A stretch of DNA of 62,657 nt from Deltaproteobacteria bacterium (lineage in GTDB: Bacteria > Myxococcota > Myxococcia > Myxococcales > 40CM-4-68-19): contig VBKI01000085.1 of the NCBI GenBank assembly GCA_005879535.1, positions 1 to 62,657 on the forward strand, written 5' to 3'. Positions 4,738 to 51,563 of this stretch are shown piece after piece. How positions within the stretch are numbered: position 1 is the first letter of the stretch; the number at the start of each line of letters is the position of its first letter. Below the pieces are notes generated by a model. That model had not been told where the DNA came from, did not search any database, and worked only from the letters and a program-made list of their open reading frames with translations. The position numbers and the translations under genes were made by a program.

Positions 4738-7206
4738 ATGAATCGCCCGGTCCGCGCCACCGCTCCGAACGAAGCGGCGGCCCTGCTGCACTCGTTCACC
4801 AACCACCTGCTCTACTCGCTGGCGAAGGATCAGTACTCGGCGACGGAGCTGGATCGATACATGTCGCTGGCGCTGACCATCCGCGACCGCCTGATCGAGC
4901 GCTGGATCAGCACGCAGCAGCGCTACTACCGCAAGGACGCAAAGCGCATTTACTACCTCTCGGCCGAGTTCCTGATGGGCCGGGCGCTCGCGAACAACCT
5001 GATCAACCTCGGGCTCTACGACACCACGCGCGACGCGATGAAGATGCTGAACCTCGACCTCGGCGACGTGCTCGAGCAGGAGGTCGACGCGGGGCTCGGC
5101 AACGGCGGCCTGGGACGGCTCGCTGCATGCTTCCTCGACTCGATGGCCACCCTCGACATTCCCGGGTACGGATACGGCATCCGCTACGAGTTCGGGATGT
5201 TCGACCAGGAGATCAAGGACGGCTGGCAGGTGGAGAAGCCGGACGAGTGGCTCCGGCTCGGCAACCCCTGGGAGATCGCGCGACCGGAGTACGGCGTCCC
5301 GGTGCGCTTCGGTGGGCACACCGAGGAGCACGCCGAGGACCACGGGCGGCTCCGGGTGCACTGGACCGGGGGCGAGCAGGTGGTGGGGATGCCGTACGAC
5401 ACGCCCATCGCGGGTTACGGGTGCAATACCGTCAATACGATGCGGCTGTGGCGCGCGCGCGCCAGCTCGGATTTCGATCTCCGCTACTTCAACGAGGGCG
5501 ACTACGAGAAGGCGGTACTGGACAAGAACCGCTCCGAGACCATCTCCAAGGTCCTCTATCCCAGCGACGTGAAGGTGTTCGGCAAGGAGCTGCGCCTCAA
5601 GCAGCAGTACTTCTTCGTCGCCTGCTCGCTGCACGACATCGTCCGCCGTCACCTCGTCGCCTTTCCCACCCTGGAGAACTTCCCCGAGAAGGTGGCAATC
5701 CAGCTCAACGATACGCACCCCGCCATCGCCATCCCCGAGCTGATGCGCATCCTGGTGGACGAGCACTCCATCGCCTGGGAGAAGGCGTGGGAAATGACGC
5801 AGGCGAGCATCGGGTACACCAACCACACCCTGCTCACCGAGGCGTTGGAGACGTGGCCGGTGGAGCTCTTCCAACGGCTTCTGCCGCGGCACCTCGCCAT
5901 CATCTACGAGATCAACCGTCGCTTCCTGCGACAGGTGATGAGCCGGTACCCGTACGACGAAGCCCGGCTTGCGCGGATGTCGGTGGTCGACGACGGCAAC
6001 GGCACGCTGGAGAGCAAGCGCATCCGGATGGCGTATCTGGCGGTGGTCGGCTCGCACAGCGTGAACGGCGTGGCGGCGCTGCATACGGAGCTCTTGAAGG
6101 CGAACCTGCTGCACGACTTCCACGAGATGTGGCCGGAGCGCTTCCACAACGTCACCAACGGCGTGACGCCGCGCCGCTGGCTGCTCGCCGCCAATCCGCT
6201 CCTGGCCGACGCGATCACCACGCGGATCGGCGACGGCTGGATCACGCAGCTCGACCAGCTCGGCAAGCTGGCCGAGCATGCCGACGACCCGGCGTTTCGC
6301 AGCGAAGTGCGGGGGATCAAGCAGCGGAACAAGGAGCATCTCGCGCGTTACATCGAGGCCGAGTACCGGGTGTCGATCGATCGCGCTTCGATGTTCGACG
6401 TCCAGGTGAAGCGGCTGCACGAGTACAAGCGGCAGCTCCTCAACCTGCTGCACGTCGTCGCGCTCTATCTGCGGTTGAAGAAGAATCCGGATCTGCAGAT
6501 GGTGCCCCGGACCTTCATCTTCGGCGGCAAGTCGGCGCCCGCGTATGCAACGGCGAAGCTGATCATCAAGCTGATCAACTCCGTCGCTTCGGTGGTGAAC
6601 GCGGATCCGCAGATGAACGGAAAACTGCGCGTGGTTTTCCTCGCCAACTACCGGGTCTCGCTGGCGGAGCGCATCTTCCCCGCATCCGACCTCTCGGAGC
6701 AGATCTCCACCGCCGGCAAGGAGGCCAGCGGCACCGGCAACATGAAGTTCGCCCTGAACGGAGCGCTCACCATCGGGACGCTGGACGGGGCGAACATCGA
6801 GATCCGCGACGAGGTCGGCGCGGACAACTTCTTCCTCTTCGGGTTGACCGCGCAGCAGGTGTCCGACCTGCAGCGGCGCGGCTACCGGCCGCGCGAGTAC
6901 TACGACAAGAACGCGGAGCTGAAGGCCGTGCTCGACCTGATCGCCTCCGGCTTCTTCGAGCCCGAGCATCCCGACGTGTTCAAGCCCCTCGTGCAGTCCT
7001 TGCTCGAGCAGGATACGTACATGCTGCTGGCGGACTTCCAGTCCTATGCGGACTGCCAGGAGCGCGTCGACAAGGCGTTCCTCGATCCGGACCAGTGGAC
7101 GCGCATGGCGATCCTCAACATCGCCAAGATGGGGAAGTTCTCCTCGGACCGGAGCATCAGCGAGTACGCGGAGAACATCTGGAAGATCCGGGGCGTGCCG
7201 GGGTAG
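4738..7206 (+). CDS. glgP: Glycogen/starch phosphorylase
   Basis: 822 residues, normal for the family. It removes glucose-1-phosphate from alpha-1,4-glucans with phosphate and pyridoxal phosphate (EC 2.4.1.1). Visible motifs: QEVDAGLGNGGLGRLAAC near residue 115, QLNDTHPAIAIPELMR near 323, FHNVTNGVTPRRW near 466, and the PLP site EASGTGNMKFALNGA near 662, whose Lys carries PLP. No glg synthesis gene is nearby. A small unknown gene follows after 3 nt. I preferred the ATG at 4738 over the GTG 15 nt upstream because TACACT lies 6 nt before the ATG. Confidence 0.97.
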   Translation: MNRPVRATAPNEAAALLHSFTNHLLYSLAKDQYSATELDRYMSLALTIRDRLIERWISTQQRYYRKDAKRIYYLSAEFLMGRALANNLINLGLYDTTRDAMKMLNLDLGDVLEQEVDAGLGNGGLGRLAACFLDSMATLDIPGYGYGIRYEFGMFDQEIKDGWQVEKPDEWLRLGNPWEIARPEYGVPVRFGGHTEEHAEDHGRLRVHWTGGEQVVGMPYDTPIAGYGCNTVNTMRLWRARASSDFDLRYFNEGDYEKAVLDKNRSETISKVLYPSDVKVFGKELRLKQQYFFVACSLHDIVRRHLVAFPTLENFPEKVAIQLNDTHPAIAIPELMRILVDEHSIAWEKAWEMTQASIGYTNHTLLTEALETWPVELFQRLLPRHLAIIYEINRRFLRQVMSRYPYDEARLARMSVVDDGNGTLESKRIRMAYLAVVGSHSVNGVAALHTELLKANLLHDFHEMWPERFHNVTNGVTPRRWLLAANPLLADAITTRIGDGWITQLDQLGKLAEHADDPAFRSEVRGIKQRNKEHLARYIEAEYRVSIDRASMFDVQVKRLHEYKRQLLNLLHVVALYLRLKKNPDLQMVPRTFIFGGKSAPAYATAKLIIKLINSVASVVNADPQMNGKLRVVFLANYRVSLAERIFPASDLSEQISTAGKEASGTGNMKFALNGALTIGTLDGANIEIRDEVGADNFFLFGLTAQQVSDLQRRGYRPREYYDKNAELKAVLDLIASGFFEPEHPDVFKPLVQSLLEQDTYMLLADFQSYADCQERVDKAFLDPDQWTRMAILNIAKMGKFSSDRSISEYAENIWKIRGVPG

Positions 7207-7209
7207 AGG

Positions 7210-7683
7210 ATGCTCCGCAGGATCCTCCGCGCACTCTTCCGTCCTCGTCCGCCGCCTCCCCCGCCGCGTCCTCCGGATCCGCGGCTGGAAGCAGATCCTT
7301 GGCTGGGGCGGCTGTTCGCGCTGCTGCCTGACCGTTACCAGCTCGGCCCTGACGCAGCGGATGGCGCGCAGGTGCTGCGCCGGACCGGGCGGGCGCGATT
7401 CAATCCGATGCCCGTGTGGTTGCGCGCGCAGGAGCGGATGGTGCGCGGAGACTATGAGGTGCGCGGTGACTCCGCAGCGGCGAAAGCGTTGCTCGATGCG
7501 CGCGTCTCGCAGCGGCTTTCCGCGATCGGAATCGTGCAAGCGTCCGAGTCGGTCGAGGATTGGGGCGGAACGGTGCTGACTCGTCGATATGAGGGGCGCT
7601 GCGAGACGTCTGAGCAGGCGGCAGCGGCCATCCGGTTCTTCTGCGAGGAGTCGGAGCAGCAGGTGAACCTGGCCGCGGAGTGA
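7210..7683 (+). CDS. Hypothetical protein downstream of glgP
   Basis: 157 residues, not recognised. The N-terminus is Arg/Pro rich (a proline run at about residues 13-23), followed by a compact alpha/beta-like part with a conserved-looking core (RFNPMPVWLRAQERM) and a C-terminal helix with two acidic stretches. There is no signal peptide or membrane segment. It starts 3 nt after glgP, so it is probably co-transcribed. A regulatory or structural role in glycogen breakdown is possible only by position. Confidence 0.65.
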   Translation: MLRRILRALFRPRPPPPPPRPPDPRLEADPWLGRLFALLPDRYQLGPDAADGAQVLRRTGRARFNPMPVWLRAQERMVRGDYEVRGDSAAAKALLDARVSQRLSAIGIVQASESVEDWGGTVLTRRYEGRCETSEQAAAAIRFFCEESEQQVNLAAE

Positions 7684-7705
7684 CTCCGAGCCGTTCGCAT
7701 CGTCG

Positions 7706-8071
7706 CTACTGCGCCTTCGTCGAGGCCGGATCCCGCGATTTCCCGCGCGGAGCATCTGGCGCGGCGCCGGGCCCCTCCAGGAGCTCCGGGTGGGACTGCA
7801 GGGGCGTTGCCGGCTGCTCGATCCCCAGCCGCACGCGCACGTCGTGATCGAGGCTGGTCAGCACATCTTCGAGGCGCTGCACCCGGTCCTCGATGGCGAG
7901 GTTCTGCTGCTGCGACTTCTGGCGGTGCTCCATCTCGAGCGTCAGCTCGCGCTCCTTCAACTTGAAATACTTGACGGCGATGATTGCGAGAGCAGGAAAC
8001 CCGAACACCATCAGGACGCTGACGATCAAGGCCACCGCCGCGATCAGGTAAGGGATCATGTCCGACGACAT
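7706..8071 (-). CDS. PspB-like small membrane protein with coiled coil
   Basis: 121 residues. One N-terminal transmembrane helix (about 7-32, IPYLIAAVALIVSVLMVFG) is followed by a charged helix (FKLKERELTLEMEHRQKSQ, RVQRLEDVLTSL), the topology of phage shock protein B, and a disordered Pro/Ala-rich tail. In PspB/PspC systems such proteins sense membrane stress, but no pspA or pspC is nearby, so this is a fold-level call. The gene runs convergent to the glgP pair. An alternative start is the ATG 12 nt downstream. Confidence 0.7.
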   Translation of the reverse strand: MSSDMIPYLIAAVALIVSVLMVFGFPALAIIAVKYFKLKERELTLEMEHRQKSQQQNLAIEDRVQRLEDVLTSLDHDVRVRLGIEQPATPLQSHPELLEGPGAAPDAPRGKSRDPASTKAQ

Positions 8072-8149
8072 GAGAGCTATACGGAGCAGACCCGCCGGGA
8101 TTTCGCCGGCCTGGGCCCGATTCGAGAGACCTCACGACATGAGCAGACC

Positions 8150-8470
8150 TCAGGACCGCAGCGTCACCGCCTGGGCCAACTTCTCGCTGACCAGCTTCCC
8201 GAGCTCGCTGAACAGCTCCACCCGCGACCGGGAGTCACGCCAGCACTTCGCCGCATCGTCCCACCCAAAGTGCCAGGCCTGCATGTTCGCCGACATCCAG
8301 ATCTGCTGCGCCGCCGAGTGCGAGTTCACGACGAACTTCGCCCCGTCCTCGAACTCCAGCGTCAGGATGTCTGCGGCCAGATCCGACTCTACTCCGTCCA
8401 CGTCCCGCAGCGCGTCGTCGAGCTTTCGCAACGTTTCCGCCGCGCGGCGGCCGAACTCCTTTTCATCCAT
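8150..8470 (-). CDS. cyaY: Iron donor protein CyaY (bacterial frataxin)
   Basis: 106 residues, the size of CyaY. The N-terminal helix carries the acidic iron-binding ridge (EKEFGRRAAETLRKLDDAL, then DVDGVESD), followed by the beta sheet (ILTLEFEDGAKFVVNSH) and the IWMSANMQAWHFGWD block diagnostic of frataxins. It binds iron and modulates IscS in Fe-S cluster assembly. The ATG at 8470 overlaps the end of the upstream acetyltransferase gene by 8 nt, so translation is coupled. A longer reading from 8539 adds only a non-conserved Arg/Pro stretch. No isc or suf genes are nearby. Confidence 0.93.
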   Translation of the reverse strand: MDEKEFGRRAAETLRKLDDALRDVDGVESDLAADILTLEFEDGAKFVVNSHSAAQQIWMSANMQAWHFGWDDAAKCWRDSRSRVELFSELGKLVSEKLAQAVTLRS

Positions 8471-8942
8471 CGCGCGCCAGCCTTTCCAGGGCGTCGCCGG
8501 CCAGCCGGAACGTCTCCCAGTCGGACAGCATCTTCGCACCGAGGCCGCGGTAGAAGTTGATCGCCGGCGTGTTCCAGTCCAGCACTTGCCAGTTCACCCG
8601 GCCGCACTTCTCCCGCACCGCGATCCGCGCCAGCTCGACCAGCAACGCCTTCCCGATACCCTTCCCGCGGAGGTGGGGCGTGACGAAGAGATCCTCGAGG
8701 TAGATTCCCCAGCGCCCGACCCAGGTCGAGTAGGTGTGGAAATAGAAGGCGAAGCCCGCCGGCGCTCCGTTCCATTCCGCCACCAGGCAGAAGTAACGAG
8801 GTTGCTCGCCGAAGCCGTCCCGGAGGAGGTCCTCCTGCGTCGCCACCACCTCCTGTGGTAACCGCTCGTACTTTGCCAGCTCGTGGATGAATGCGAGCAT
8901 CTGCGGGACGTCGCGAGGCTCAGCCTTCCGGATGACGATCAT
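8463..8942 (-). CDS. GNAT N-acetyltransferase (diamine acetyltransferase-like)
   Basis: 159 residues with a complete GNAT fold: N-terminal IRKAEPRDVPQMLAFIHELA, the ERLPQEVVATQEDLLRDGF segment typical of spermidine/spermine acetyltransferase-like proteins, the acetyl-CoA loop EDLFVTPHLRGKGIGKALL near residues 83-101, and the C-terminal WNTPAINFYRGLGA. It probably transfers acetyl from acetyl-CoA to an amine such as a polyamine or thialysine. It is coupled to cyaY downstream. Its ATG shares the tetranucleotide CATG (8940-8943) with an ATG of the opposite gene, so the promoters face each other at this point. Confidence 0.85.
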   Translation of the reverse strand: MIVIRKAEPRDVPQMLAFIHELAKYERLPQEVVATQEDLLRDGFGEQPRYFCLVAEWNGAPAGFAFYFHTYSTWVGRWGIYLEDLFVTPHLRGKGIGKALLVELARIAVREKCGRVNWQVLDWNTPAINFYRGLGAKMLSDWETFRLAGDALERLARDG

Positions 8943-8954
8943 GGAGCAGGAACA

Positions 8955-8960
8955 TACACT
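8955..8960 (+). promoter_or_regulatory. -10-like hexamer deciding the EEP start
   Basis: TACACT ends 7 nt before the GTG at 8968. It supports the GTG over the ATG at 8941 that overlaps the acetyltransferase start. Confidence 0.35.
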
Positions 8961-8967
8961 CGCGGGC

Positions 8968-9897
8968 GTGCCCCTGCGCATCGTGAGCTACAACGTCCGC
9001 TACTTCGGACATGCGCTCCGTGGCCTCGCCAGCACGCGAGGAAGCAAGCGCGCCATCGCGGATGCGTTGGCCACGCTCGACCCCGCCGCCGACATCATCT
9101 GCCTGCAGGAAGTGGAGACGTTCTCGCTGCGCAGCAGCCTGGTCTTCCGCCGATCACATCGGACGGAGACGCAGCTCGAGTCGTTCATGGCCGAGCTGGA
9201 ACGCGCTTTCGAGCGACGGCCGCCGCCCTTTCCCTATGACGCATTCTACTTCCGGGCCCACGTGAACCGTATCGGCAACACGCCGCTGCAGAGCATGGGG
9301 CTCGCCATCCTCGTGCACCGCTACCGCATCCGGATCGACACCCACAACTGCGAAAGCCCGCACGACATCACCTATCACCACGTGCTCCGCTGGAAGGACC
9401 GCAAGCAGACGCGGATCTGCGCCCACATGAAACTGGTCGGACCGCGCGGGAAGCCGTTCCACATCTTCAATACGCACCTGTCGCTGCCCACGCCGTTCTC
9501 ACGCGAGTTCTGGACGACCTCGCAAAGGATGGGATTCGGCGTGAATCAGCTGCACGAGGCCAAGACGCTGGCCGCTTTCATCCACCGGCACGCCGGAGAC
9601 GAGCCGTTCATCGTCTGCGGCGACTTCAATTCGCTGCCCGACTCGCCGGTATACCGCTTTCTCACCGACGATTGCGGCCTGGTAGGCGTGCAGAAGCACC
9701 TGCGGCAGATTGACCGCGACCCCCGCGATTTCCCCACCGCCGGCTTCATGAGGCTGCGCATGCACCTCGATCATCTCTTCTCGAGCCCCCTCGTGAACTG
9801 GCTCGATCTGGAAGGTACGTGCCGTTTCGGCGATCGCTCGAGCCCCTTCTGGGGAAAGAGCGACCACGTGCCGCTGATCGGGCGCTTCGACCTTTGA
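8968..9897 (+). CDS. Endonuclease/exonuclease/phosphatase family protein
   Basis: 309 residues from GTG 8968 (318 from ATG 8941). The EEP fold is clear: RIVSYNVRYFG at the N-terminus, ICLQEVETF with the metal-binding Glu near residue 45, HIFNTHLSLPTPFSREFW, FIVCGDFNSLPDSPVYRFL near 215, HLDHLFSS and the terminal DHVPLIGRFDL with the catalytic Asp-His. Members are Mg-dependent phosphodiesterases acting on DNA, inositol phosphates or sphingomyelin; the substrate here is open. No signal peptide, so cytoplasmic. The MATE gene follows 12 nt later. Confidence 0.88.
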   Translation: MPLRIVSYNVRYFGHALRGLASTRGSKRAIADALATLDPAADIICLQEVETFSLRSSLVFRRSHRTETQLESFMAELERAFERRPPPFPYDAFYFRAHVNRIGNTPLQSMGLAILVHRYRIRIDTHNCESPHDITYHHVLRWKDRKQTRICAHMKLVGPRGKPFHIFNTHLSLPTPFSREFWTTSQRMGFGVNQLHEAKTLAAFIHRHAGDEPFIVCGDFNSLPDSPVYRFLTDDCGLVGVQKHLRQIDRDPRDFPTAGFMRLRMHLDHLFSSPLVNWLDLEGTCRFGDRSSPFWGKSDHVPLIGRFDL

Positions 9898-9909
9898 TAC
9901 GACGGCTCC

Positions 9910-11238
9910 GTGAACGAGCTGCGAAAGCTGCTGCGCCTGGCGGCGCCCATCGCCTTCACCCAGGCGGGCTACGCCATGATGGGGCTGGTCGACACCGCCG
10001 TCGTCGGCCGCCTCGGGGCGGCCCCGCTCGGCGCCGTCGGCCTCGCCAACGGCCTCTTCCTCGCCGTCGCCATCGTGGGGCTCGGAGCGATGTTGGGCCT
10101 CGATCCGCTCTTTGCGCAGGCGCTCGGAGCGCGCGACGAGGCGCGGGCCCGCGAGCTGATCTGGCAGGGGCTGTGGCTTTCGGCCGTCGTCACGCTGGCG
10201 CTGGCGCTGCCCATCGCTGCGCTGCCGTTCGCGCTCGAGCCCTGGGGCATCCCCGCCGAAGTCGTGGGCGACGCGCGGCTCTTCCTCTGGCTGCGCTTGC
10301 CCGGGCTCTGGCCCATGCTCGCGTTCGCGGCATTGCGCTCGTACCTGCAGGCGCGCGAGCAGCTCCGCGCGCTCGTGGTTGCGACGGTGGTGGCAAACGT
10401 CGCGAACTTCGCGCTGGACGTGGTCTTCGTCTTCGGGCATCTGGGCATGCCGGCGCTTGGCGCGCCCGGATCGGGGCTCGTGACCAGCATCTGCTCGCTG
10501 TTCCAGTTCGCCATTCTCGCCAAGGCGGTGCGACCTGGACGGCGCCAGCCGCCGCGGTCCGCGGACCTGCGCAAGGCTCTCTCGGTGGGAATCCCGGTCG
10601 GCTTGCAGATGGGAGCGGAGGTCGGGGTCTTTGCCCTCGTCGGCGTGCTGGCCGGCCGCCTCGGCGCGTCCAGTCTGGCGGCGCACCAGGTAGCAATCTC
10701 GCTCGCGAGCTTCACCTTCTGCGCCGCGGTCGGTGTAGGAATGGCCGGGACGGTGCGAGTCGGATGGGCGATCGGCGCGCGCGACACGCCGGCAGCACGA
10801 CGCGCAGGGCTGACGGCGTTCGCCGGCGGCGCGGGCATCATGTCCATCGCTGCGCTCTGCTTCTGGCTCCTGCCCGGCGCCCTCGCGCGCATGCTCTCCG
10901 ATCAACCCGACGTCATCGCCGCCTCGCTGCCGCTGCTCGCGGTCTGCGCCGTCTTCCAGCTCTCCGATGGAATCCAGGGCGTCGGCGCCGGTGTGCTCCG
11001 CGGGGCCGGCGATACCCGGTTCGCGTTTCTCGCGAACCTCGTCGGCCACTACGCCATCGGGCTGCCGGTGGCCATCGTGCTCGGCCTGCGTCTTGGCCAC
11101 GGCGTGATCGGGCTGTGGTGGGGCCTGTGCGCCGGCCTCACCGCCGTGGCGATGGCGCTCTTGACGCGTTTTCTGCGCTTGTCGGCGAGAGAGATCGCAC
11201 CTCTGGAGGCGCACCCCGCCGTGGCGCCGCCCCGATGA
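9910..11238 (+). CDS. MATE-family efflux transporter
   Basis: 442 residues with twelve hydrophobic helices in two six-helix halves. The N-terminal signature is typical (LAAPIAFTQAGYAMMGLVDTAVVGRLG), and the second half restarts near residue 220 (ALSVGIPVGLQMGAEVGVFALVG). These inner-membrane antiporters expel cationic drugs or metabolites using Na+ or H+. The start is GTG at 9910. Its stop overlaps the ATG of the next gene by 4 nt (ATGA), linking the transporter to a SIS-domain sugar protein. Confidence 0.92.
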   Translation: MNELRKLLRLAAPIAFTQAGYAMMGLVDTAVVGRLGAAPLGAVGLANGLFLAVAIVGLGAMLGLDPLFAQALGARDEARARELIWQGLWLSAVVTLALALPIAALPFALEPWGIPAEVVGDARLFLWLRLPGLWPMLAFAALRSYLQAREQLRALVVATVVANVANFALDVVFVFGHLGMPALGAPGSGLVTSICSLFQFAILAKAVRPGRRQPPRSADLRKALSVGIPVGLQMGAEVGVFALVGVLAGRLGASSLAAHQVAISLASFTFCAAVGVGMAGTVRVGWAIGARDTPAARRAGLTAFAGGAGIMSIAALCFWLLPGALARMLSDQPDVIAASLPLLAVCAVFQLSDGIQGVGAGVLRGAGDTRFAFLANLVGHYAIGLPVAIVLGLRLGHGVIGLWWGLCAGLTAVAMALLTRFLRLSAREIAPLEAHPAVAPPR

Positions 11239-12122
11239 AGTTCCTCTACGACGCGCAGATCGAATCGCAGCCGGACGCCGTGGTAGCAGTATTGCGCCGG
11301 CCGGCGCCGCGCCTGGATCCGTCGCGTCCGCTGTTGTTCTGCGGCCAGGGGACATCGCTCCACGCGGCGCGCATCGCCGCGGCATGGGCCGGATATCCGG
11401 CGCAGGCTCTCGATTCGCACGACGTCGCCCTGCGGAGCGGAATTCCCTCCGGTGCGCAGGTGGTCGCCATCTCGCACTCCGGTCGCGGCTTCACCGCCGC
11501 GGTGCTACGCAAGGCGCGCGCTGCCGGAGCGAGCACGTTCGCTGTGTGCGGCGACGCGGCAACCGCCGACGCCGATCACGTGGTCCGCACCTGTGCTCCC
11601 GAGCGGGCGCAGACGCACAGCGTTTCGTACGTCACCGCGCTGGCCGCCCTCGGGCAGATGCTCGGCCTCGATCTTTCCAGCGCGCCGCGTCTGCTCCGCG
11701 ATGCGCTCGCCGAGCCCGCGCCCGTCGACGACGCGCGCCGCCTCGCCGGCAAGGATCCGCTGCTCGTCACGGGGTTCGGGCTCGACGCGATCACGGCCGA
11801 GGAGGCCGCGCTGAAGCTGAAGGAAGCGACGTTCCAGTGGGCAGAGGCGCTCAGCGTGGAACAGGCGTTGCACGGACCGCAGGCAGCTCTGCGTCAGGGG
11901 ATGGGCGCAATCCTCTTCATTCCGGACCACGACGATGGCGGCCGCACCGTCCGGCTCCGCGACCTCTGCGCGCAGCTCGGCGTGGAAGTCGTCGACATCC
12001 GGGTTCCGGCTTCCAGCGAAGCGCTCCGCCCGATCGTCTCCATCGTCCCCGCCCAGCGCCTCGCGGCGGAGATTTCCCGCCTGACCGGCGGCGATCCCGA
12101 CCACTCACGACATCCGGTGTAG
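11235..12122 (+). CDS. SIS-domain protein (GlmS isomerase-domain-like)
   Basis: 295 residues containing two sugar-isomerase (SIS) domains: residues about 30-140 (LLFCGQGTSLHAARIAAAW, VVAISHSGRGFTAAVLRKA) and about 175-290 (LLVTGFGLDAITAEEAALKLKEA, EALSVEQALHGPQAAL). This is the isomerase half of glucosamine-6-phosphate synthase without the glutaminase domain, as in AgaS or FrlB-type deglycases that act on phosphorylated amino or fructosamine sugars. Translation is coupled to the MATE gene. The exact sugar phosphate is not evident. The gene converges on the M20 gene with 1 nt between. Confidence 0.85.
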   Translation: MKFLYDAQIESQPDAVVAVLRRPAPRLDPSRPLLFCGQGTSLHAARIAAAWAGYPAQALDSHDVALRSGIPSGAQVVAISHSGRGFTAAVLRKARAAGASTFAVCGDAATADADHVVRTCAPERAQTHSVSYVTALAALGQMLGLDLSSAPRLLRDALAEPAPVDDARRLAGKDPLLVTGFGLDAITAEEAALKLKEATFQWAEALSVEQALHGPQAALRQGMGAILFIPDHDDGGRTVRLRDLCAQLGVEVVDIRVPASSEALRPIVSIVPAQRLAAEISRLTGGDPDHSRHPV

Positions 12123-12123
12123 C

Positions 12124-13199
12124 TCACGGTTTCGCGAACCGCTCCACCGCCGCAGCGAGGATCTCGGTCGCGCGCGCCAGCTCGGCGACCGGCACGAACT
12201 CACCGCTCCGGTGCGCGACGCGGATGTCTCCGGGCCCGAATACGCAGGCACTGGCGCCGAGCCGGACGAGATAAGGCAGCTCGGTCCCGAATGGAATCGT
12301 CTCCGGCGCGTTCTTCGACTCCGCGCGCAGGAAAGCGACGATCTGCGAATCCTCCGGGACCAGCACTCCCGCATCGAGCCGCTGCGCGGCCACTTCGATG
12401 CGGATGCGCTCGTCCTGGATCCGCGCGCAAGCCTGCTCGAGAAGCCTGAGCGTCGAGCCCGGATCCTGCGACGGCAGCGGCCGCCACTCCACGGCCATCG
12501 TGCAGACGCCGGGGATGACGTTCTTCGCCTTGCCTCCGGAGATCACTCCGACGTTCAACGTCGTATGCGGTGGGGCAAACGCCGGGTCGGCTTCCGCCCG
12601 GAGCTCGCCCGCGATTCGCTCCACGTCCCGCAGCACGCGCCCGGCGGCGAGAATCGCGGAGGCGCCGGTCTCCGGATATGCGCTGTGACCCTCAATCCCC
12701 CGGACCGTCACTTCCGCCAGGCAGTAACCCTTGTGCCCGAGCACCGGGATCATCCGCGTCGGCTCTCCGACGATGGCGACCCGCGGCCTGACCGCGCCCT
12801 CCTCGGCGAGGCGTCGGGCGCCGAGACACCCGACCTCCTCGTCGGCGGTGAAGACGAGTTGCAACGGCTTCGCCTGCGTAGAAACGCCTTCGTGTCCGCA
12901 GCGCCTCGCCCCAACACCTTTCCGTCCTCGCGTGCCGGCCGCAGCGCCGCGGTCCACCCTGCGTCGAAGGGGACGCAGTCGGTGTGCCCGACCAGCGAGA
13001 TGCCGCCCTTCTCGCCGCCCCGATGCGCGACCAGGTTTCCCTTCTCCATCCCCGCCGCGTCCTTCCAGAGCTGTCGCCGGGTCGTCAGCCCCAGCGCGCG
13101 GGCGTGTCGCTCGAGCACGCCGAGGATCGGCAGGTTGCTGCGCGCGGACGTGGAGTCGACCGCCACCAGCTCCTCGAGAAGGGCGACGGGGTCGATCAT
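12124..13199 (-). pseudogene. M20-family deacylase (ArgE/acetylornithine deacetylase-like), frameshifted
   Basis: Two overlapping frames together make one M20 metallo-deacylase. The N-terminal frame (start ATG 13199) gives LVGHTDCVPFDAGW and GRGAADTKAF with the metal-binding His and Asp, then leaves frame near 12880. The other frame resumes with LQLVFTADEEVGCLGARRL and runs to the end through IVGEPT, GIEGHSAYP and the C-terminal GPGDIRVAHRSGE metal ligand. Compared with ArgE-type proteins, about 13 residues between ADMKGF and the TADEE block are absent, so roughly 40 nt are lost, not a multiple of three. The start overlaps the hutF stop by 4 nt. It is either a real inactivating deletion or a local sequence error. 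Confidence 0.8.
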
Positions 13200-21249: not shown

Positions 21250-23223
21250 ATGCGACTTCCGGTCAAGCTGTCGCTCCTGCTCTCGGCGGCTACCTGCTTC
21301 CCGCTCCTGCTCGCCACCGCGTTCACGCTGCCGCGCGGTCGAGAGGCGCTGCGGAGCCAGCTCGACGAAATCTACGCCCAGGACGCCCGGACGCTCGCGG
21401 GTGAGGTCCACCGGACGCTCGTCGACAAGCTCGACTCGCTCACGCTTGCTGCTTCCACGCTGAGGCTCCACGAGCTCGATCCCGAGGCCCGCGAGCAGGC
21501 GCTGCTCTTGATCTACAAGGAGACGCGGGGCGCGGACATCGTCGGCCTCTTCGACTCCAGAGCAGACGCGGTCGGCAACATCATCCGGTTCGCGAGGCTC
21601 CAGGGCGTTCTCGCCTCGGAGCATGAGCCCATCGACGATGCTGCCCTGTCCATGTACGCCGGCAAGGTGCCGCTGCAGGGCGCGCTCCAGGCGGGTCTCG
21701 CCATCGGGCCCGTCTACATCCTGCCGGACGCCGAAGGACGTCCCATTCCCCGCCTCGTGCTCGCCGTTGCCGTGCCCGGCACGCGCGGAACGCGGTGGGT
21801 GGTCGCGGTGGAGGTGTCGCTGCGCAGGCTCGCCGACAGCTTCGAGCGCTTCCGTCCCGGCGAGTCTGGTGCGGCCTTCCTCGTCGACGGCGAAGGCAAG
21901 GTGATCTTCCACCCGAACCGGGAGCTGATGCTCAAACGGGTGACGCTCCGCGACCATCCGCTGCTCAAGGGCACGCAAAGCGACGACTGGCTGGGCGCGA
22001 ACGCCCCCGTACCGCTCCTGGGGTGGAAGGCGGTGGTGCAGGAGTCCGCCGCCGAGGCGTTGGGCCCGCTGCGCCATCTCGCCCGCGACGCCTATCTCTG
22101 GCTCGCTCTCGGCCTCCTGGTCGCGGTGCTCCTCGGATTCAGCTCGGTTCGCACGGTCACGGCGCCGGTGCAGAAGCTGCGCGAGGCGGCCCTCGCAGTC
22201 ACCGGCGGCGCGCTGGAAACCATCGTGGACGTGAAACGCCGCGACGAGCTGGGCGAGCTCGCCGACGCCTTCAACACCATGACCCGCGGATTGCGCGAGC
22301 GGGAAGGCATGAAGGTCACGCTCGCCCTCTCCGAAACGCTGGAGCTGAAGGAGGTGCTGGAACGCCTCCTCGACAGCCTGGGCCGCGCCGTCCGATTCGA
22401 CGAGGCGTCCGTCCTGGTGGAGACCCGCGACGGCATGGACGTGATCGTCAGCCGCGGACCGCGAGGCAAGGACAAGTCGCAGCGCATCGTGCCGACCGCC
22501 GCGCACGTGGAGCGCGCCGTCACCACGCACCTGCCCGCGCTCAACGACGGCCGCCAGATGATGGCGCTGCCGCTGATCCAGCGTGGCGTGGCGATCGGCG
22601 TGGTCTGCCTGGAGAGCCACCATGCTTACACCGACGCCGAGGTCCGCCTGACGCAGTCGCTCACGCAGCCGGCGGCGATGGCCGTGGAGAACGCGCGGCT
22701 CTTCGACGAGGTCCAGCGCCTGGCCACCCTCGACGGCCTGACCGGCACGTACAACCGGCGCCACTTCATGGAACTGGCGCAGCGCGAGTACGACAACGCG
22801 CGCCGCTTCGGGCATCCGCTGACGGCGATGATGCTCGACGTCGACCACTTCAAACGGATCAACGACCGCCACGGACATCACGTCGGCGACCAGGTGTTGC
22901 GCATCCTCGCCGATCGCTGCCGCACGGCACTGCGCTCGGTGGACGTCCTCGGCCGCTACGGCGGCGAGGAGTTCGCCATCCTGCTGCCCGGGAGCACGCA
23001 GCACCACGCCGCGACCGTGCTGGCGGAGCGCATCCGGCGCCGCGTCGCCGACGAACCCATCCGCACCGACGACGGCGCGGTGAAAGTCACGGTCAGCGTC
23101 GGCGTCGCCGAGCTGGACGAGGAGATGCGGAATCCCGGCGACTTGTTCAAGCGCGCCGACGCCGCGCTCTACGAGGCGAAGCAGGCGGGCCGCAACCGCG
23201 TGGTCGAAGACGCCGTCGCGTGA
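21250..23223 (+). CDS. Membrane diguanylate cyclase (Cache-HAMP-GAF-GGDEF)
   Basis: 657 residues. An N-terminal transmembrane helix (about 8-28) and a second near 283-302 enclose a periplasmic Cache-like sensor domain. HAMP follows (about 303-355, RTVTAPVQKLREA, RRDELGELADAFNTM), then a GAF-like domain (about 370-480) and a GGDEF domain. The active site reads GRYGGEEF near residue 575 and is complete, and an RxxD inhibitory site (RSVD) lies just before it, so product feedback is expected. It makes cyclic di-GMP from two GTP in response to an extracytoplasmic cue. A PilZ protein occurs at 47.5 kb. bioB follows 12 nt later. Confidence 0.95.
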   Translation: MRLPVKLSLLLSAATCFPLLLATAFTLPRGREALRSQLDEIYAQDARTLAGEVHRTLVDKLDSLTLAASTLRLHELDPEAREQALLLIYKETRGADIVGLFDSRADAVGNIIRFARLQGVLASEHEPIDDAALSMYAGKVPLQGALQAGLAIGPVYILPDAEGRPIPRLVLAVAVPGTRGTRWVVAVEVSLRRLADSFERFRPGESGAAFLVDGEGKVIFHPNRELMLKRVTLRDHPLLKGTQSDDWLGANAPVPLLGWKAVVQESAAEALGPLRHLARDAYLWLALGLLVAVLLGFSSVRTVTAPVQKLREAALAVTGGALETIVDVKRRDELGELADAFNTMTRGLREREGMKVTLALSETLELKEVLERLLDSLGRAVRFDEASVLVETRDGMDVIVSRGPRGKDKSQRIVPTAAHVERAVTTHLPALNDGRQMMALPLIQRGVAIGVVCLESHHAYTDAEVRLTQSLTQPAAMAVENARLFDEVQRLATLDGLTGTYNRRHFMELAQREYDNARRFGHPLTAMMLDVDHFKRINDRHGHHVGDQVLRILADRCRTALRSVDVLGRYGGEEFAILLPGSTQHHAATVLAERIRRRVADEPIRTDDGAVKVTVSVGVAELDEEMRNPGDLFKRADAALYEAKQAGRNRVVEDAVA

Positions 23224-46270: not shown

Positions 46271-47473
46271 ATGCTGGACGAAGGACTGCGCTCGCTCATC
46301 GCCCTACACGGCGTTGGGGAGACCCGCAGTGGCGGGATTCTCATCGTAGACGATGAGAAACCCAACCTCACAGTCCTGCGAGATTTCCTCGAAGCCGGGT
46401 ACCGCGTCCACGAGGCGCAGTCCGGAAACGAAGCGCTGGAGATCGCGAAAGCGTCCGCGCTGGACGTGATCATCGCCGACCAGCGCATGCCGGAGATGAC
46501 CGGCGTCGAGCTGCTGGAAAGAGTGCGCGAATTCAAGCCTGACGTCGCAGGCATCATCCTCACCGGCTTCACCGATCCCCCCGCGCTGATCTCGGCGATC
46601 AACCGCGCCCGCGTCTTCCGGTTCTTGAAGAAGCCTTGGCAGCCGGACGACATCCTCGAAGCGGTCCGCCAGGCCAGCGAGCACGTGTACCAGACCCGCG
46701 CCATCCAGCGCCTCGTCGCGCTGCTGGCGAAGCGCACCGACGAGCTGGACGCGAGCCTGGTCCAGATCCGCCGCACGCAGTCGCATCTCTTGCACCTCGA
46801 GCGCCTGGGAACCATGGGCAAGCTCGCCGCGGGCGTCGTCCACGACCTGCGCAATCTCATGGTCAGCCTCGGTTACGTCGAGAGCGTCCTGCAGCAGCGC
46901 AGCGTCGCCCCCGACGTGATGGAGAGCGTGCAGGTCGGAATGCAGGGCGTGGGCAACCTGATCCATACGCTCGAGGCGATGCACCAATTCGCCCGCGGCG
47001 GCGTTCTGACCATCCAGAAATCCATGCTCCAGCCCTCGGTGGTGGTGCACGACGCTCTCGCCATCGCCCGCATGGACATGGGGTTCCGGGCGCACAAGGT
47101 GGCGGTCAACATCGAGGAGGGCCTTCCTCCCGTCCACGGTGACCGCCAGAAGTTGACGCAGGTGCTGGTGAACCTCGTGCGCAACGCCGTCCAGGCCACG
47201 GCGCAATGGCGTCAGATCGGAGTGGAGGCCTCGCGCAAGAACGGCCACGTCGTCTTCGCGGTCGAGGACGAGGGTCCCGGCGTGCCGCCCGACCTCAAGG
47301 AAAGCCTCTTCAAGCCGTTCGTCACCAGCAAGGGCGAAGGGGGCATGGGCATGGGCTTGTACATGGCCAAGCTGATCATCGATTCGCACCAGGGGGAGAT
47401 CGCGGTTCTCGACCGGCCAGAAGGCGGCGCGCGGTTCGAGGTGCGGCTGCTGCCGGCGGAGGAAACCCGGTGA
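46271..47473 (+). CDS. Receiver-histidine kinase protein (first gene of phc-like trio)
   Basis: 400 residues with reversed order: an N-terminal receiver (about 22-140; IVDDEK, phospho-acceptor Asp 70 in VIIADQRMPEMTG, Lys in FRFLKKPWQ) followed by a soluble kinase with H-box GKLAAGVVHDLRNLM (His 191) and an HATPase domain (NLVRNAVQA near 305, EDEGPGV, GGMGMGLYMAKLI). There is no membrane segment. The layout matches receiver-kinase proteins such as Ralstonia PhcR. Its stop overlaps the GTG of the PilZ-methyltransferase gene (GTGA). The upstream 95-nt gap holds an AT-rich stretch with TACACT at 46243, a possible operon promoter. Confidence 0.92.
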   Translation: MLDEGLRSLIALHGVGETRSGGILIVDDEKPNLTVLRDFLEAGYRVHEAQSGNEALEIAKASALDVIIADQRMPEMTGVELLERVREFKPDVAGIILTGFTDPPALISAINRARVFRFLKKPWQPDDILEAVRQASEHVYQTRAIQRLVALLAKRTDELDASLVQIRRTQSHLLHLERLGTMGKLAAGVVHDLRNLMVSLGYVESVLQQRSVAPDVMESVQVGMQGVGNLIHTLEAMHQFARGGVLTIQKSMLQPSVVVHDALAIARMDMGFRAHKVAVNIEEGLPPVHGDRQKLTQVLVNLVRNAVQATAQWRQIGVEASRKNGHVVFAVEDEGPGVPPDLKESLFKPFVTSKGEGGMGMGLYMAKLIIDSHQGEIAVLDRPEGGARFEVRLLPAEETR

Positions 47474-48945
47474 CGGTCACCCTCCACCGCGTCCACACCT
47501 ACGAAGAGCTGGAAGGCGCGCAAGGCCGGGAGGTGTTCTTCCGTCCTCACCGCTACCGCGCAACCGACCTCCTGCCCCTGCATTGCGAGGTGGTGCTGGC
47601 GTTCTCCGACGGCGACCGTCCGGGGGCCCTGGTCGACGTCTCGCAGAACGGCGCCGCCTTCGAATGGCCGGACGACCTGCCGGTATCGGTTGGCGATCAT
47701 CTGGAGACGCTCGCGGTCCGCTTCGACGAGCACGAGCCCTACCGCGGAGAGGCCCGCGTCGGCTCCGTCCGCGATCTGAACGGGATCCGCGTCGTCGGTG
47801 TTTCCTTCGAAGGGCCGCTCCTGCCGATCGACGGCATCCTGGAGCTGCGCACCATCAAGTCGTTCGCCCAGACCGGGGTGCCGCCGGCGCTCTGGCGCGT
47901 TCCAGGGCACGAGCGCTTCAAGGTGCTGATCTCCGAGCTGCGCCTCTATCTGGAGGACGTCGAGCCGCAGCTCAAGCGCCTCGAGAGCGACCTGCCCTGG
48001 CACGTGCTGCACGGCGACGGGTCGCCGGCGCGCGCGGCGCTGATCGAGCGGATGCGGACCACGGTGGTGGCGGACATCCTGCGTGCGAGCGAGGAGATCG
48101 ACGCCGCCTCGCGCAACGCGCCACCCGAGCACGCGCAGGCCATGCTGCAGTGGTCGCGCCGTCACCTGCACTCGCTGCTCATGCAAGCGCCCTCCATGAA
48201 CCGCGCCGCCGCCAAGCCGTTCGGGTATCCCGGCGACTACGAGGTGATGCGGTTCATCTACGAAAAGCCCTTCGAGGGACCGACGCTGTTCGCCAAGGCG
48301 ATCAGCTTCGCGTTCGATCAGACCCGCGCTTCCTGCGCCGTCCGCCACCGCAAGGACCTGATCAAGCGCGAGGTCCGCGCCCTGATCCAGTCGCGGAGGC
48401 GTCCCGTCCGGATCCTCGCCGTCGCCTGCGGTCCAGCGCAGGATCTCCTCGAGCTGTTCGCCGAAATCCAGGACCTGCGCGGGCCCATCGAGATCGTTCT
48501 CTTCGACCAGGACAAGGGCGCGCTTGCCTACGCCTACCGGCGCCTCAAGCCGGTGATCGACCCGCTGCAGGGACAGGTGAAGGTCATCTACCTGCACGAG
48601 TCGATCAAGCGACTGCTCCGCGACGCGAATCTCTTCGTGCCGTTCGGCGGCTTCGACCTGATCTACTCCGTGGGACTGTTCGACTACCTGCGTACGCCCA
48701 CCGCCACCGGTCTGGCGCGCAACCTGGTGGCGCGCCTGCATCCAGGCGGCCGCGCGCTGATCGCCAACATGGTCCCGGAGAGCCCCAGCCGCTGGTACCT
48801 CGAGTACCACCTCGACTGGTTCCTCAACTACCGGACCCGCCAGCAGCTCCTCGACCTGGCCAGCAGGGCCGCTCCCGGAGCGCGCTTCAACATCCTCGAG
48901 GAGGAGAGCGGCGTGAATCCGTTCGTGGAGATCTTCCGCGATTGA
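47470..48945 (+). CDS. PilZ-domain protein fused to PhcB-like SAM-dependent methyltransferase
   Basis: 491 residues from the GTG at 47470. Residues about 20-128 look like PilZ: an Arg cluster FFRPHRYR (25, 28, 30) and a complete DxSxxG (DVSQNG, 56-61), the cyclic-di-GMP motifs, though the RxxxR part is degenerate. A helical region follows, then GYPGDYEVMRFIYE near 252-265 and a class I methyltransferase (about 310-491) with the SAM loop ILAVACGPAQDLLEL near 315. The GYPGDYE block and fold are what I recall from PhcB-type methyltransferases that make 3-hydroxy fatty acid methyl ester signals. It is coupled to kinase genes on both sides. A direct PilZ-signal-synthase fusion would let c-di-GMP tune signal output (inference). 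Confidence 0.8.
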   Translation: MTVTLHRVHTYEELEGAQGREVFFRPHRYRATDLLPLHCEVVLAFSDGDRPGALVDVSQNGAAFEWPDDLPVSVGDHLETLAVRFDEHEPYRGEARVGSVRDLNGIRVVGVSFEGPLLPIDGILELRTIKSFAQTGVPPALWRVPGHERFKVLISELRLYLEDVEPQLKRLESDLPWHVLHGDGSPARAALIERMRTTVVADILRASEEIDAASRNAPPEHAQAMLQWSRRHLHSLLMQAPSMNRAAAKPFGYPGDYEVMRFIYEKPFEGPTLFAKAISFAFDQTRASCAVRHRKDLIKREVRALIQSRRRPVRILAVACGPAQDLLELFAEIQDLRGPIEIVLFDQDKGALAYAYRRLKPVIDPLQGQVKVIYLHESIKRLLRDANLFVPFGGFDLIYSVGLFDYLRTPTATGLARNLVARLHPGGRALIANMVPESPSRWYLEYHLDWFLNYRTRQQLLDLASRAAPGARFNILEEESGVNPFVEIFRD

Positions 48946-51563
48946 TGGACGCACTGCCGGCAGCGTTCGAGGAGCGTTGGGCGCGCTGGCTGCTGGAGAG
49001 CAATCGGCGACGGACGCGCACGGGCCTGTACATCGCCTGCGCGCTGTTGCCGTTCTTCGGCGTTCTCGACTACATGCTCGCGCCCCCGGGCACCCTCCGG
49101 ATCCTCTGGGGCGTGCGCCTCGCGGTGCTGATGGTCACCTACGCCGCGTTTCCCATCGTTCGGACCCGTTTCTTCGAGCGGCATCCGAGCGCGCTCACCA
49201 GCGCGTACGTGGCGCTGATCGCCTTCAGCATCAGCGCCATGACCGTCTTCCTGGGCGGGCTCGCCTCGCCCTACTACGCGGGCCTGTCGCTCGTGATCAT
49301 CGGCGCCGGACTGCTCTTCATCTGGCCGGCCAAGGTAGTGGTCACGACCCACTCGCTGATCGTGCTCTCCTTCGTCCTCCCCAACCTGCTGGTCGGCGAA
49401 TGGGAGCCGCTCTCGCAGGCGCTCTCCAACCTCGCCTTCCTTCTCGGCATCGCCGTGGTGGGCGGCACCGGCCAGATCGTCCTCTACCGCTCGCTCCGCG
49501 AGCAGGTGCTCAACCAGGTGCGACTGGAAGAGACCAAGGCCTCCCTGGAGGCTGCCCACGAGCAGCTCAAGGCGCTCGACAGCTTCAAGTCGCAGTTCTT
49601 CGCCAACATCACCCACGAGTTCAAGACGCCGCTGGCGATGGTGCTCGCGCCGCTGGAGCTGATCCTGCAGGGCGAGATGGGGGAACTGTCCGCCGCGCAC
49701 CGGGGGACGTTCGAGTCGATGTTCCGCAGCGGCCTCAAGCTGCTGAAGATGATCGGCGATCTGCTCGACCTCTCGCGGATGGAGGAGTCGAAGCTGCGCC
49801 TGAAGGTCGCCGAGCACGACCTCGCCGAGTATCTGCGCGCCCTGGTCTCGCAGGTGCAGCCCTTGGCGCAGCGCAAGGGCATCGAGCTTTCGCTGCGGGT
49901 CGAGGCCAGGTCCACGGTGGTCTGGTGCGACCTGGAGCGGATCGAGCGCGTGTTCCTGAACCTGCTCTCCAACGCGACCAAGTTCACGCAGCCGGGCGGC
50001 CACGTCCAGGTCATCGTGCGCGAGGCCAGCGCGCGGATCGAAGTGGTGGTACAGGACGACGGTCCGGGATTTCCGCCGGAAAAAGCCGACAGGATCTTCG
50101 AGCGCTTCTACCAGGTGGACATGGGTGGGACGCGAAGGTACGGCGGCACCGGCATCGGGCTCGCCCTGGCGAAGGAGATCGTCGAGCTGCACGGAGGGCA
50201 GATCCGCGCGGAGTCCTCCGGCGGCGCGAAGTTCACGGTCGGGCTGCTGCGCGACCGGGATCACTTCCCTGCGGAGGTGCTCGACCGGCGCGGTCCCGCC
50301 CGGGACGTGCCGGAAGGACATCGCGCGAACGATCGCGGCCTGATGGACTTTGCCGTGCAGATGTCGGCGCGCGACGAGTACCGGCTCCTCGACATCGCCG
50401 AGGCGACCGAGCGCCGCGTCTCGGTCCGCGACAGCGACGAAGACCAGAAGGCCCACCTCGCCCTCGTCGTCGACGACACGCCGGACATCATCCGCCTGGT
50501 GCACAACTCGCTGCGCGCGCATTTCAAGGTGATCTCCGCCGACGACGGGCTCAAAGGCCTGGAGATGGCGGTGCGGGAGCGGCCTTCGCTGGTGATCGCC
50601 GACCTCATGATGCCGGGCATCGACGGCCTCGAGCTGACCCGCAGGCTGCGCAACAGCGAGGAGACGCGGCACATCCCCATCCTGATGCTCACCGCCAAGG
50701 GAGACCTCGAGGACCGCGTCGCCGGCCTGGAGACCGGGGTCTCGGCCTACCTGGCAAAGCCGTTTTCGCCGCGCGAGCTGCTCACCACGGCGCGCGCGCT
50801 GGTGCAGGCGCAGGAGACCACGGCCGACATCGTGCTCACGCAGCGCATGGATTCGCTGGAGATCGTCGCCGGCGGCCTGGCGCACGAGATCAACAATCCG
50901 CTGAACTATCTCAAGAACGCGCTGGCGCGCGTCCGCATGGACGCGGAGGCGCTGGTCGCGGGAAGGCTTTCCGCGGAAGAGCTGCCGCGCGTCGAGAAGC
51001 GGATGCGGGAAATGTTCGAGCTGGCGGAGGGCGGCATCCGTCGCATCGCCGGCACCGTCGAGCTGATGAGCAGCTACAGCAAGGCTGGATACTCGCGCCA
51101 ACTGCGTCCGTACGATGTCTTCGGTGCCGTCCGCGAAGTGGTGGCGATGGTGCTGCCGGCGACGGGCCGGCCGGTGCAGGTGGACCTGGACCTTCCGGGG
51201 GAAGGAACGATCGAGTGCGTGCCCGAGGAGTTCAACCAGGTCCTCTCGAACCTGGTGCAGAACGCGATCGAGGCGTGCCCCGAAAGCGGCGGACTGGTGA
51301 GGGTGCGCGGAAGCCGCGAGGGGGAGAACGTCGTCATCTCCGTCAAGGACAACGGCCCGGGCGTGCGACCGGAGGACGCGACGCGGATCTTCACGCCGTT
51401 CTTCACCACCAAGGGGCCCGGTCGCGGAATGGGCATGGGGTTGACCATCGCCTGGCGCGTCGTGCAGAGCCTGGAAGGAACGCTGGAATTGCGCCCTGGG
51501 CCCGGAGCGGAGTTCGTGCTTCGGCTGCCGCGCAAGCAGTCGCGGCTGCGCGCGGTCTCTTGA
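48945..51563 (+). CDS. Membrane hybrid kinase: sensor HK-receiver-second HK (PhcS/PhcR-like fusion)
   Basis: 872 residues. About six hydrophobic helices (27-185) with little periplasmic sequence, then kinase 1 with H-box FFANITHEFKTPLAM (His 224) and HATPase to about 435 (NATKFTQ, DDGPGFPP, GGTGIGLALAK), a receiver (about 505-620; acceptor Asp 553 in IADLMMPG, Lys in AYLAKPFS) and kinase 2 with H-box LAHEINNPLNYLKNAL (His 647) and a second HATPase (QNAIEACPE, DNGPGV, GRGMGMGLTIAW). This equals a PhcS-type sensor joined to a PhcR-type receiver-kinase. The membrane part may sense a lipid-like signal. The start overlaps the methyltransferase stop (TGATG). Confidence 0.93.
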   Translation: MDALPAAFEERWARWLLESNRRRTRTGLYIACALLPFFGVLDYMLAPPGTLRILWGVRLAVLMVTYAAFPIVRTRFFERHPSALTSAYVALIAFSISAMTVFLGGLASPYYAGLSLVIIGAGLLFIWPAKVVVTTHSLIVLSFVLPNLLVGEWEPLSQALSNLAFLLGIAVVGGTGQIVLYRSLREQVLNQVRLEETKASLEAAHEQLKALDSFKSQFFANITHEFKTPLAMVLAPLELILQGEMGELSAAHRGTFESMFRSGLKLLKMIGDLLDLSRMEESKLRLKVAEHDLAEYLRALVSQVQPLAQRKGIELSLRVEARSTVVWCDLERIERVFLNLLSNATKFTQPGGHVQVIVREASARIEVVVQDDGPGFPPEKADRIFERFYQVDMGGTRRYGGTGIGLALAKEIVELHGGQIRAESSGGAKFTVGLLRDRDHFPAEVLDRRGPARDVPEGHRANDRGLMDFAVQMSARDEYRLLDIAEATERRVSVRDSDEDQKAHLALVVDDTPDIIRLVHNSLRAHFKVISADDGLKGLEMAVRERPSLVIADLMMPGIDGLELTRRLRNSEETRHIPILMLTAKGDLEDRVAGLETGVSAYLAKPFSPRELLTTARALVQAQETTADIVLTQRMDSLEIVAGGLAHEINNPLNYLKNALARVRMDAEALVAGRLSAEELPRVEKRMREMFELAEGGIRRIAGTVELMSSYSKAGYSRQLRPYDVFGAVREVVAMVLPATGRPVQVDLDLPGEGTIECVPEEFNQVLSNLVQNAIEACPESGGLVRVRGSREGENVVISVKDNGPGVRPEDATRIFTPFFTTKGPGRGMGMGLTIAWRVVQSLEGTLELRPGPGAEFVLRLPRKQSRLRAVS

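Follow-up and report, generated by a model that had tools for sequence, protein, structure and literature searches.

A candidate phc-like signaling cassette in a myxobacterial contig pairs a PilZ-methyltransferase with a PhcS-type membrane kinase

We analyzed the contig VBKI01000085.1 from a Deltaproteobacteria bacterium of the order Myxococcales over its positions 1-62,657 (the window, to which all positions refer) and focused on three adjacent genes at 46271-51563. The genes, termed g1, g2, and g3, encode a soluble receiver-histidine kinase (REC-kinase), a PilZ-methyltransferase, and a membrane protein with a histidine kinase-receiver-histidine kinase (HK-REC-HK) layout. We conclude that this trio is probably a cell-to-cell signaling cassette of the phc kind, in which a synthase is encoded together with its receptor and may itself be gated by cyclic di-GMP (c-di-GMP). 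The papers that were searched describe phc-type signaling in Ralstonia and its relatives; PhcB is reported there to produce 3-hydroxy fatty acid methyl esters, and PhcS is the receptor (PMC8578825, PMC11960443).

All three genes are encoded in tandem on the + strand, and each overlaps the next. The first gene, g1 (46271..47473; ATG start, TGA stop), encodes a 400-residue protein with a PhcR-like layout of Pfam REC and HATPase_c domains, and its receiver domain spans residues 23-133 (46337..46669; PF00072, 88.9 bits). A 4-nt GTGA overlap (47470..47473) places the start of g2 within the stop of g1, which indicates translational coupling. The second gene, g2 (47470..48945; GTG start, TGA stop), encodes a protein of 491 residues that is, by Pfam, profile match, and tree, a PhcB-like putative signal synthase. 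A TGATG overlap (48943..48947) joins its stop to the start of g3 (48945..51563; ATG start, TGA stop), which encodes an 872-residue membrane hybrid kinase with approximately six transmembrane helices followed by HK, REC, and HK. The Pfam domains of g3 comprise two HisKA/HATPase pairs and one REC, i.e., a first kinase with H224 (49587..50246), a receiver with D553 (50463..50789; PF00072, 91.3 bits), and a second kinase with H647 (50802..51539). The phosphorelay residues are intact in g1 (D70 and H191) as well as in g3; D70 is kept in every ortholog covering that position, H191 in 13/13, and the three g3 sites in the orthologs that cover them, with H224 invariant in 15. An earlier note, made from the sequence of this DNA, had described both overlaps and the domain layout of the two flanking proteins, and the gene starts and stops together with the Pfam domains agree with it.

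The evidence for a phc-like synthase comes from the methyltransferase of g2. Pfam assigned to g2 the PilZ domain plus a weak class I methyltransferase match. For comparison, we used 80 Burkholderiales loci from one genome scan; the motif and Pfam counts cover 18 PhcB proteins. The loci include one of Ralstonia pickettii (L125) whose methyltransferase, membrane kinase, REC-kinase, and receiver protein correspond to phcB, phcS, phcR, and phcQ, the gene set described for Ralstonia (PMC8578825); the search detected a complete REC-kinase in 58/80 of the loci but not in the others. The profile of g2 orthologs matched the Burkholderiales PhcB profile with probability 100 and an E value of 1.4e-49 over 414 columns (hhalign), and searching g2 against the whole genomes of R. 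pickettii, Cupriavidus necator, and Paraburkholderia xenovorans yielded PhcB as the sole match. In a maximum-likelihood tree of methyltransferases, g2 orthologs, PhcB, and the methyltransferase of one further locus, L051, occupied one half (support 94/82), with L051 as the sister of PhcB (98/85), and methyltransferases linked to SpoIIE formed a separate clade. Methyltransferases from Rhizobium and Pantoea and small Myxococcaceae-like ones, which had been candidates for closer relatives of g2, were ruled out by the same tree. These results show that the methyltransferase of g2 is a full-length relative of PhcB, as had been proposed, and no grouping with unrelated methyltransferases emerged. The gene order at L051 is methyltransferase, membrane HK-REC-HK, and REC-HK, which is the order of phcB, phcS, and phcR, and this locus is intermediate between the trio and the phc arrangement.

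Within g2, the class I S-adenosylmethionine-dependent methyltransferase region covers residues 225-491 (48142..48942), as supported by the PhcB profile match and a fold match to 3ocj (Z 19.7). The earlier note had put this region at residues 240-491; its start lies near residues 225-240, preceded by a helical stretch (residues 146-237) that the AlphaFold2 (AF2) model places between PilZ and methyltransferase. The block itself, GYPGDYEVM at residues 252-260 (48223..48249), aligns with GYAGDYxMV in PhcB, and its residues G252, Y253, G255, D256, and Y257 are invariant in the g2 ortholog alignment. Both GYPGDYEVMRFIYE and DVSQNG (residues 56-61) are present in g2. Sequence searches of the PDB gave nothing useful for full-length g2, for the PilZ profile, or for the PhcB N-terminal profile, the full g2 profile returning weak methyltransferase matches only. 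A strongly PhcB-like methyltransferase also occurs elsewhere in the phylum of the window (L167, 3276-4475), apparently without an N-terminal barrel and without an adjoining sensor; it falls inside the PhcB clade, perhaps through horizontal transfer.

The receptor side of the trio is likewise related to the phc system. The membrane domain of g3 (residues 1-205; 48945..49559), which hydropathy also supports, matched PhcS membrane domains with an hhalign probability of 97.9 and an E value of 6.2e-13, and a block resembling S-x-Y-Y-A-G-L is common to both, with S-P-Y-Y-A-G-L as its form in g3. When the g3 sensor served as the query, PhcS was the single match in R. pickettii (E 6.7e-5) and in C. 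necator (E 0.006). In the reciprocal direction, PhcS found 64 kinases in the genome that carries the trio, and only g3 and one paralog matched through the membrane part as well. As a whole, g3 resembles a fusion of a PhcS-type sensor kinase with a REC-kinase of the PhcR type, in line with what the earlier note had envisioned.

We also examined the PilZ domain of g2 (residues 30-114; 47557..47811), which scored 25.2 bits against a curated cut-off of 22.5 for PF07238 and was matched in 14/14 orthologs scanned. The c-di-GMP motif DxSxxG, present as DVSQNG at residues 56-61 (47635..47652), and the arginine pair ahead of the barrel, FRPHR at residues 24-28 (47539..47553) or FRPxR in general, are invariant in 17/17 orthologs, and DxSxxG occurs in 0/18 PhcB proteins. 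The AF2 model shows six strands in the order of a small beta-barrel in this region, with a predicted local distance difference test (pLDDT) score of mostly 60-76; fold searches used the full g2 model and returned methyltransferases only, and therefore supplied no fold match bearing on the PilZ part. PhcB has no Pfam PilZ match (0/18), yet in its model, residues 10-85 contain six strands ordered as in g2, and its N-terminal profile matched the barrel profile of the trio with a score of 26.5 versus 17.4 for the best of 60 column-shuffled controls, i.e., above 60/60. In the alignment, the PhcB counterpart of DxSxxG reads NxQxxS, a decayed form of the motif. Because Ralstonia PhcB thus has a degenerate N-terminal barrel, the PilZ-type fusion appears to be ancestral and neither a myxobacterial add-on nor unique to this organism. 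DxSxxG is retained in the trio branch and, among other relatives, in L051 only, which suggests that the peculiarity here is the retained c-di-GMP-type motif and not the fusion. The claim that a c-di-GMP-type domain is fused to the synthase stands with respect to the domain and its DxSxxG.

The barrel appears to matter for synthase output, because a substitution in Ralstonia PhcB outside the methyltransferase domain, R22C, strongly lowers the signal in culture fluid (PMC6989110), and the model places residue 22 in the second strand of the N-terminal barrel. If this relationship holds, Ralstonia PhcB carries a hidden PilZ-derived domain that would explain the effect of R22C on signal output. With 14 GGDEF domains in the genome of the window, of which one lies in the window itself, c-di-GMP is probably made in this organism.

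To place the trio among relatives, we used 60 related genomes for both conservation and linkage. Full-length relatives of g2 were found in its own family and in one other family of the same order, and none was found among the viral contigs searched. A REC-kinase, a PilZ-methyltransferase, and a membrane HK-REC-HK occur in this order in 17 genomes of these two families, the window included, a count that contains three incomplete loci (g3 is cut by the contig end in L040 and L156, and frames are split in L049). Such repeated occurrence with an identical order indicates that the trio is not a chance arrangement, and the non-conservation that would have spoken against the earlier note did not occur. 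In 13/13 compared loci, g1, g2, and g3 were all matched and g1 lay directly upstream of g2, whereas neighboring genes beyond the trio were common mainly to loci of the same genus, which suggests that the unit under selection comprises exactly these three genes. One genome, G057, encodes an orphan PilZ-methyltransferase with neither kinase (L047, 4852-6564, on contig C133) as well as a second copy whose REC-kinase sits on the opposite strand.

The linkage between methyltransferase and sensor extends beyond the trio. Sensor matches at E<=1e-30 began 3-156 bp behind a PhcB-family methyltransferase on the same strand in 16/16 cases, and at E<=1e-10 in 21/23, with paired methyltransferases that include ones just 32-38% identical to g2. 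Of 20 further loci whose methyltransferases are divergent, 15 carry the same sensor domain in the gene that follows, and in the divergent pairs that were checked, the sensor output is a SpoIIE phosphatase or a class III nucleotide cyclase instead of a kinase. Specifically, proteins that join a six-helix sensor of the PhcS type to a SpoIIE phosphatase are encoded directly behind a PhcB-family methyltransferase at L157 (5592-7046), L158 (5232-6671), L160 (4907-6340), and L163 (5550-7187), and a six-helix sensor joined to a class III adenylate/guanylate cyclase occupies the same position at L054 (5784-7247). These pairs and others of the same phylum resemble the trio in that a methyltransferase of the same superfamily is directly upstream of the same sensor, but they differ in their non-kinase output and in an N-terminus without DxSxxG, and in the SpoIIE-linked pairs the methyltransferase belongs to the clade separate from the trio. 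A likeness of the N-termini of SpoIIE-linked methyltransferases to the PilZ-like barrel was not established (score 18.0 versus 17.7 for the best shuffled control). A sensor that stays constant while the output varies is the pattern expected of a ligand-making enzyme and its receptor.

Based on these results, we infer a pathway in which methylation by g2 of a precursor from the cell, with acyl compounds as the likeliest kind, would yield a small, membrane-permeable, lipophilic signal, for which 3-hydroxy fatty acid methyl ester would be the candidate by analogy with PhcB. The six-helix sensor of g3 may bind this signal in the membrane and switch its kinase, from which phosphate could pass via the g3 receiver and second kinase through the soluble g1 to regulators encoded elsewhere. 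Binding of c-di-GMP to the PilZ domain would raise or lower the signal output of g2, such that an internal messenger feeds an external signal. If correct, this scheme would represent a direct link between the level of c-di-GMP and the production of a quorum signal.

Several observations weigh against this proposal. The identity of g2 to PhcB is approximately 26%, and class I methyltransferases switch substrate readily. In P. xenovorans, the g3 sensor query places PhcS third and without significance. Although g1 aligned with PhcR over its full length (E 1.2e-39), other kinases of the same Burkholderiales genomes outscored PhcR, and orthology between the two, when tested, was not supported; g1 therefore appears PhcR-like in layout only. 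The conserved unit consists of g1, g2, and g3, with no phcQ and no transcription factor among the compared loci. By these comparisons, the trio is not a strict phcBSRQ operon, since it is without phcQ, has a different order, and does not have the strict RxxxR. The description of the trio as a rearranged phcBSR-like system is accordingly upheld by a synthase homologous to PhcB and a sensor homologous to PhcS within one unit, but not by g1 or by the rest of the phc gene set. Regarding c-di-GMP, the canonical RxxxR, the defining motif in work on Myxococcus PilZ proteins (PMC8316039), is absent and replaced by RxxR, and the arginine positions are not modeled because residues 1-39 have a pLDDT below 50. 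The PilZ-like N-terminus that was first read as bearing an intact DxSxxG is backed by Pfam, DVSQNG, and the modeled strand order, but its c-di-GMP-type motif as a whole is only half canonical. Finally, g2 might act on a protein, given its family's weak Pfam matches of the CheR type.

These CheR-type matches, seen in 7/14 orthologs and 14/18 PhcB proteins, raise the alternative that g2 is a CheR-type protein methyltransferase that modifies the adjoining membrane sensor for adaptation and synthesizes no signal. A receptor-modifying enzyme would also be found nearly always beside the receptor whatever its output domain, and because it would give the same pairing pattern, this alternative has to be retained, albeit as one that we regard as quite unlikely. 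The matches are far below the cut-off (the best ortholog reached E 0.013, and the g2 of the window gave none at E up to 1), no chemoreceptor-like methylation helices in g3 and no partner methylesterase were noticed, and PhcB, the closest tested relative, reportedly synthesizes 3-hydroxy fatty acid methyl esters, for which PhcS is the receptor (PMC8578825, PMC11960443). It is also conceivable that g2 methylates a pool of membrane lipids or acyl groups and that the six-helix sensor reads the state of its own membrane, with no diffusible signal involved. Six-helix sensors have very lipophilic ligands that are thought to bind within the membrane (PMC4821796), which makes an internal lipid ligand possible, and coupling to c-di-GMP would suit a switch in motility or surface behavior. 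However, PhcB and PhcS, the sole tested relatives, work via the culture fluid (PMC6989110), and we consider such membrane monitoring unlikely.

A further alternative accepts the cassette and contests only the c-di-GMP step, in that the PilZ domain would be a structural lid that does not bind c-di-GMP, as is apparently the case in Ralstonia PhcB. The RxxR spacing of FRPxR in place of strict RxxxR is consistent with such a lid, as are the six-stranded PhcB barrel kept without the motif (DxSxxG in 0/18) and the match between the two barrel profiles above 60/60 controls. In opposition, DxSxxG and both arginines are invariant in 17 orthologs whose identity falls to ~50%, which suggests selection for a ligand site, and we consequently lean against the lid while viewing it as a substantial possibility.

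Comparison with described systems places the signaling cassette that we favor closest to phcBSRQ of Ralstonia, Cupriavidus, and Paraburkholderia. There, too, the methyltransferase is of the PhcB family, has the same N-terminal barrel, and is encoded beside a six-helix sensor kinase and a REC-kinase. The trio differs in its order of REC-kinase, synthase, and sensor versus B-S-R-Q, in the fusion of sensor and REC-kinase in g3, in the further REC-kinase g1, in the lack of phcQ, and in having kept the c-di-GMP motif. CqsA and LqsA, the synthases of the CqsS and LqsS systems, are not known to be methyltransferases. In architecture, CqsS of Vibrio and LqsS of Legionella resemble g3, since their histidine kinases carry six short membrane helices and respond to lipophilic ligands (PMC4821796). 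Proteins that join PilZ to another functional domain, as in g2, include PixA and PixB of Myxococcus xanthus, although the enzyme in PixB is an acetyltransferase and not a methyltransferase (PMC8316039). The open-licence literature that was searched contained no PilZ-methyltransferase adjoining a sensor kinase.

Taken together, we tentatively propose, at somewhat less than an even chance, that phcB-phcS is one branch of a broad class of cassettes that combine a PhcB-family methyltransferase with a six-helix receptor and an exchangeable output, and that the trio synthase has kept a functional c-di-GMP receptor by which signal production is gated, directly coupling the second messenger to the extracellular signal. 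The searched papers, which were open-licence ones, do not describe PhcB-family methyltransferases paired with six-helix sensors whose outputs are exchangeable; nor did they contain a description of PhcB with PilZ, of PhcS with CqsS/LqsS, or of the SpoIIE combination, an absence that is weak evidence. If the proposal is correct, the synthase-receptor logic of phc exists in another phylum with several outputs, and the pairing offers a route to receptor-ligand pairs for orphan six-helix sensors.

Additional loci feature related components. At L135 (contig C47 of genome G000, 220000-238000), a paralogous HK-REC-HK membrane protein whose sensor is of the PhcS type lies back to back with a REC-kinase, and the neighbors of this pair encode an AMP-ligase, an AurF-like oxygenase, and a short-chain dehydrogenase; the gene coordinates are 7658-10261 (-), 10035-11483 (+), 6774-7895 (-), 5009-6781 (-), and 11449-12255 (-). 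This locus may be a second signaling cassette that relies on another synthase. Among plasmids, a search turned up a Paraburkholderia locus in which a methyltransferase is followed by a six-helix kinase and then two receivers, and in a plasmid locus of Paraburkholderia graminis (L031, 7343-9092), a lone 134-residue receiver occupies the position of phcR. Within the window, the GGDEF domain, which is of the diguanylate cyclase type, lies at 22723-23199.

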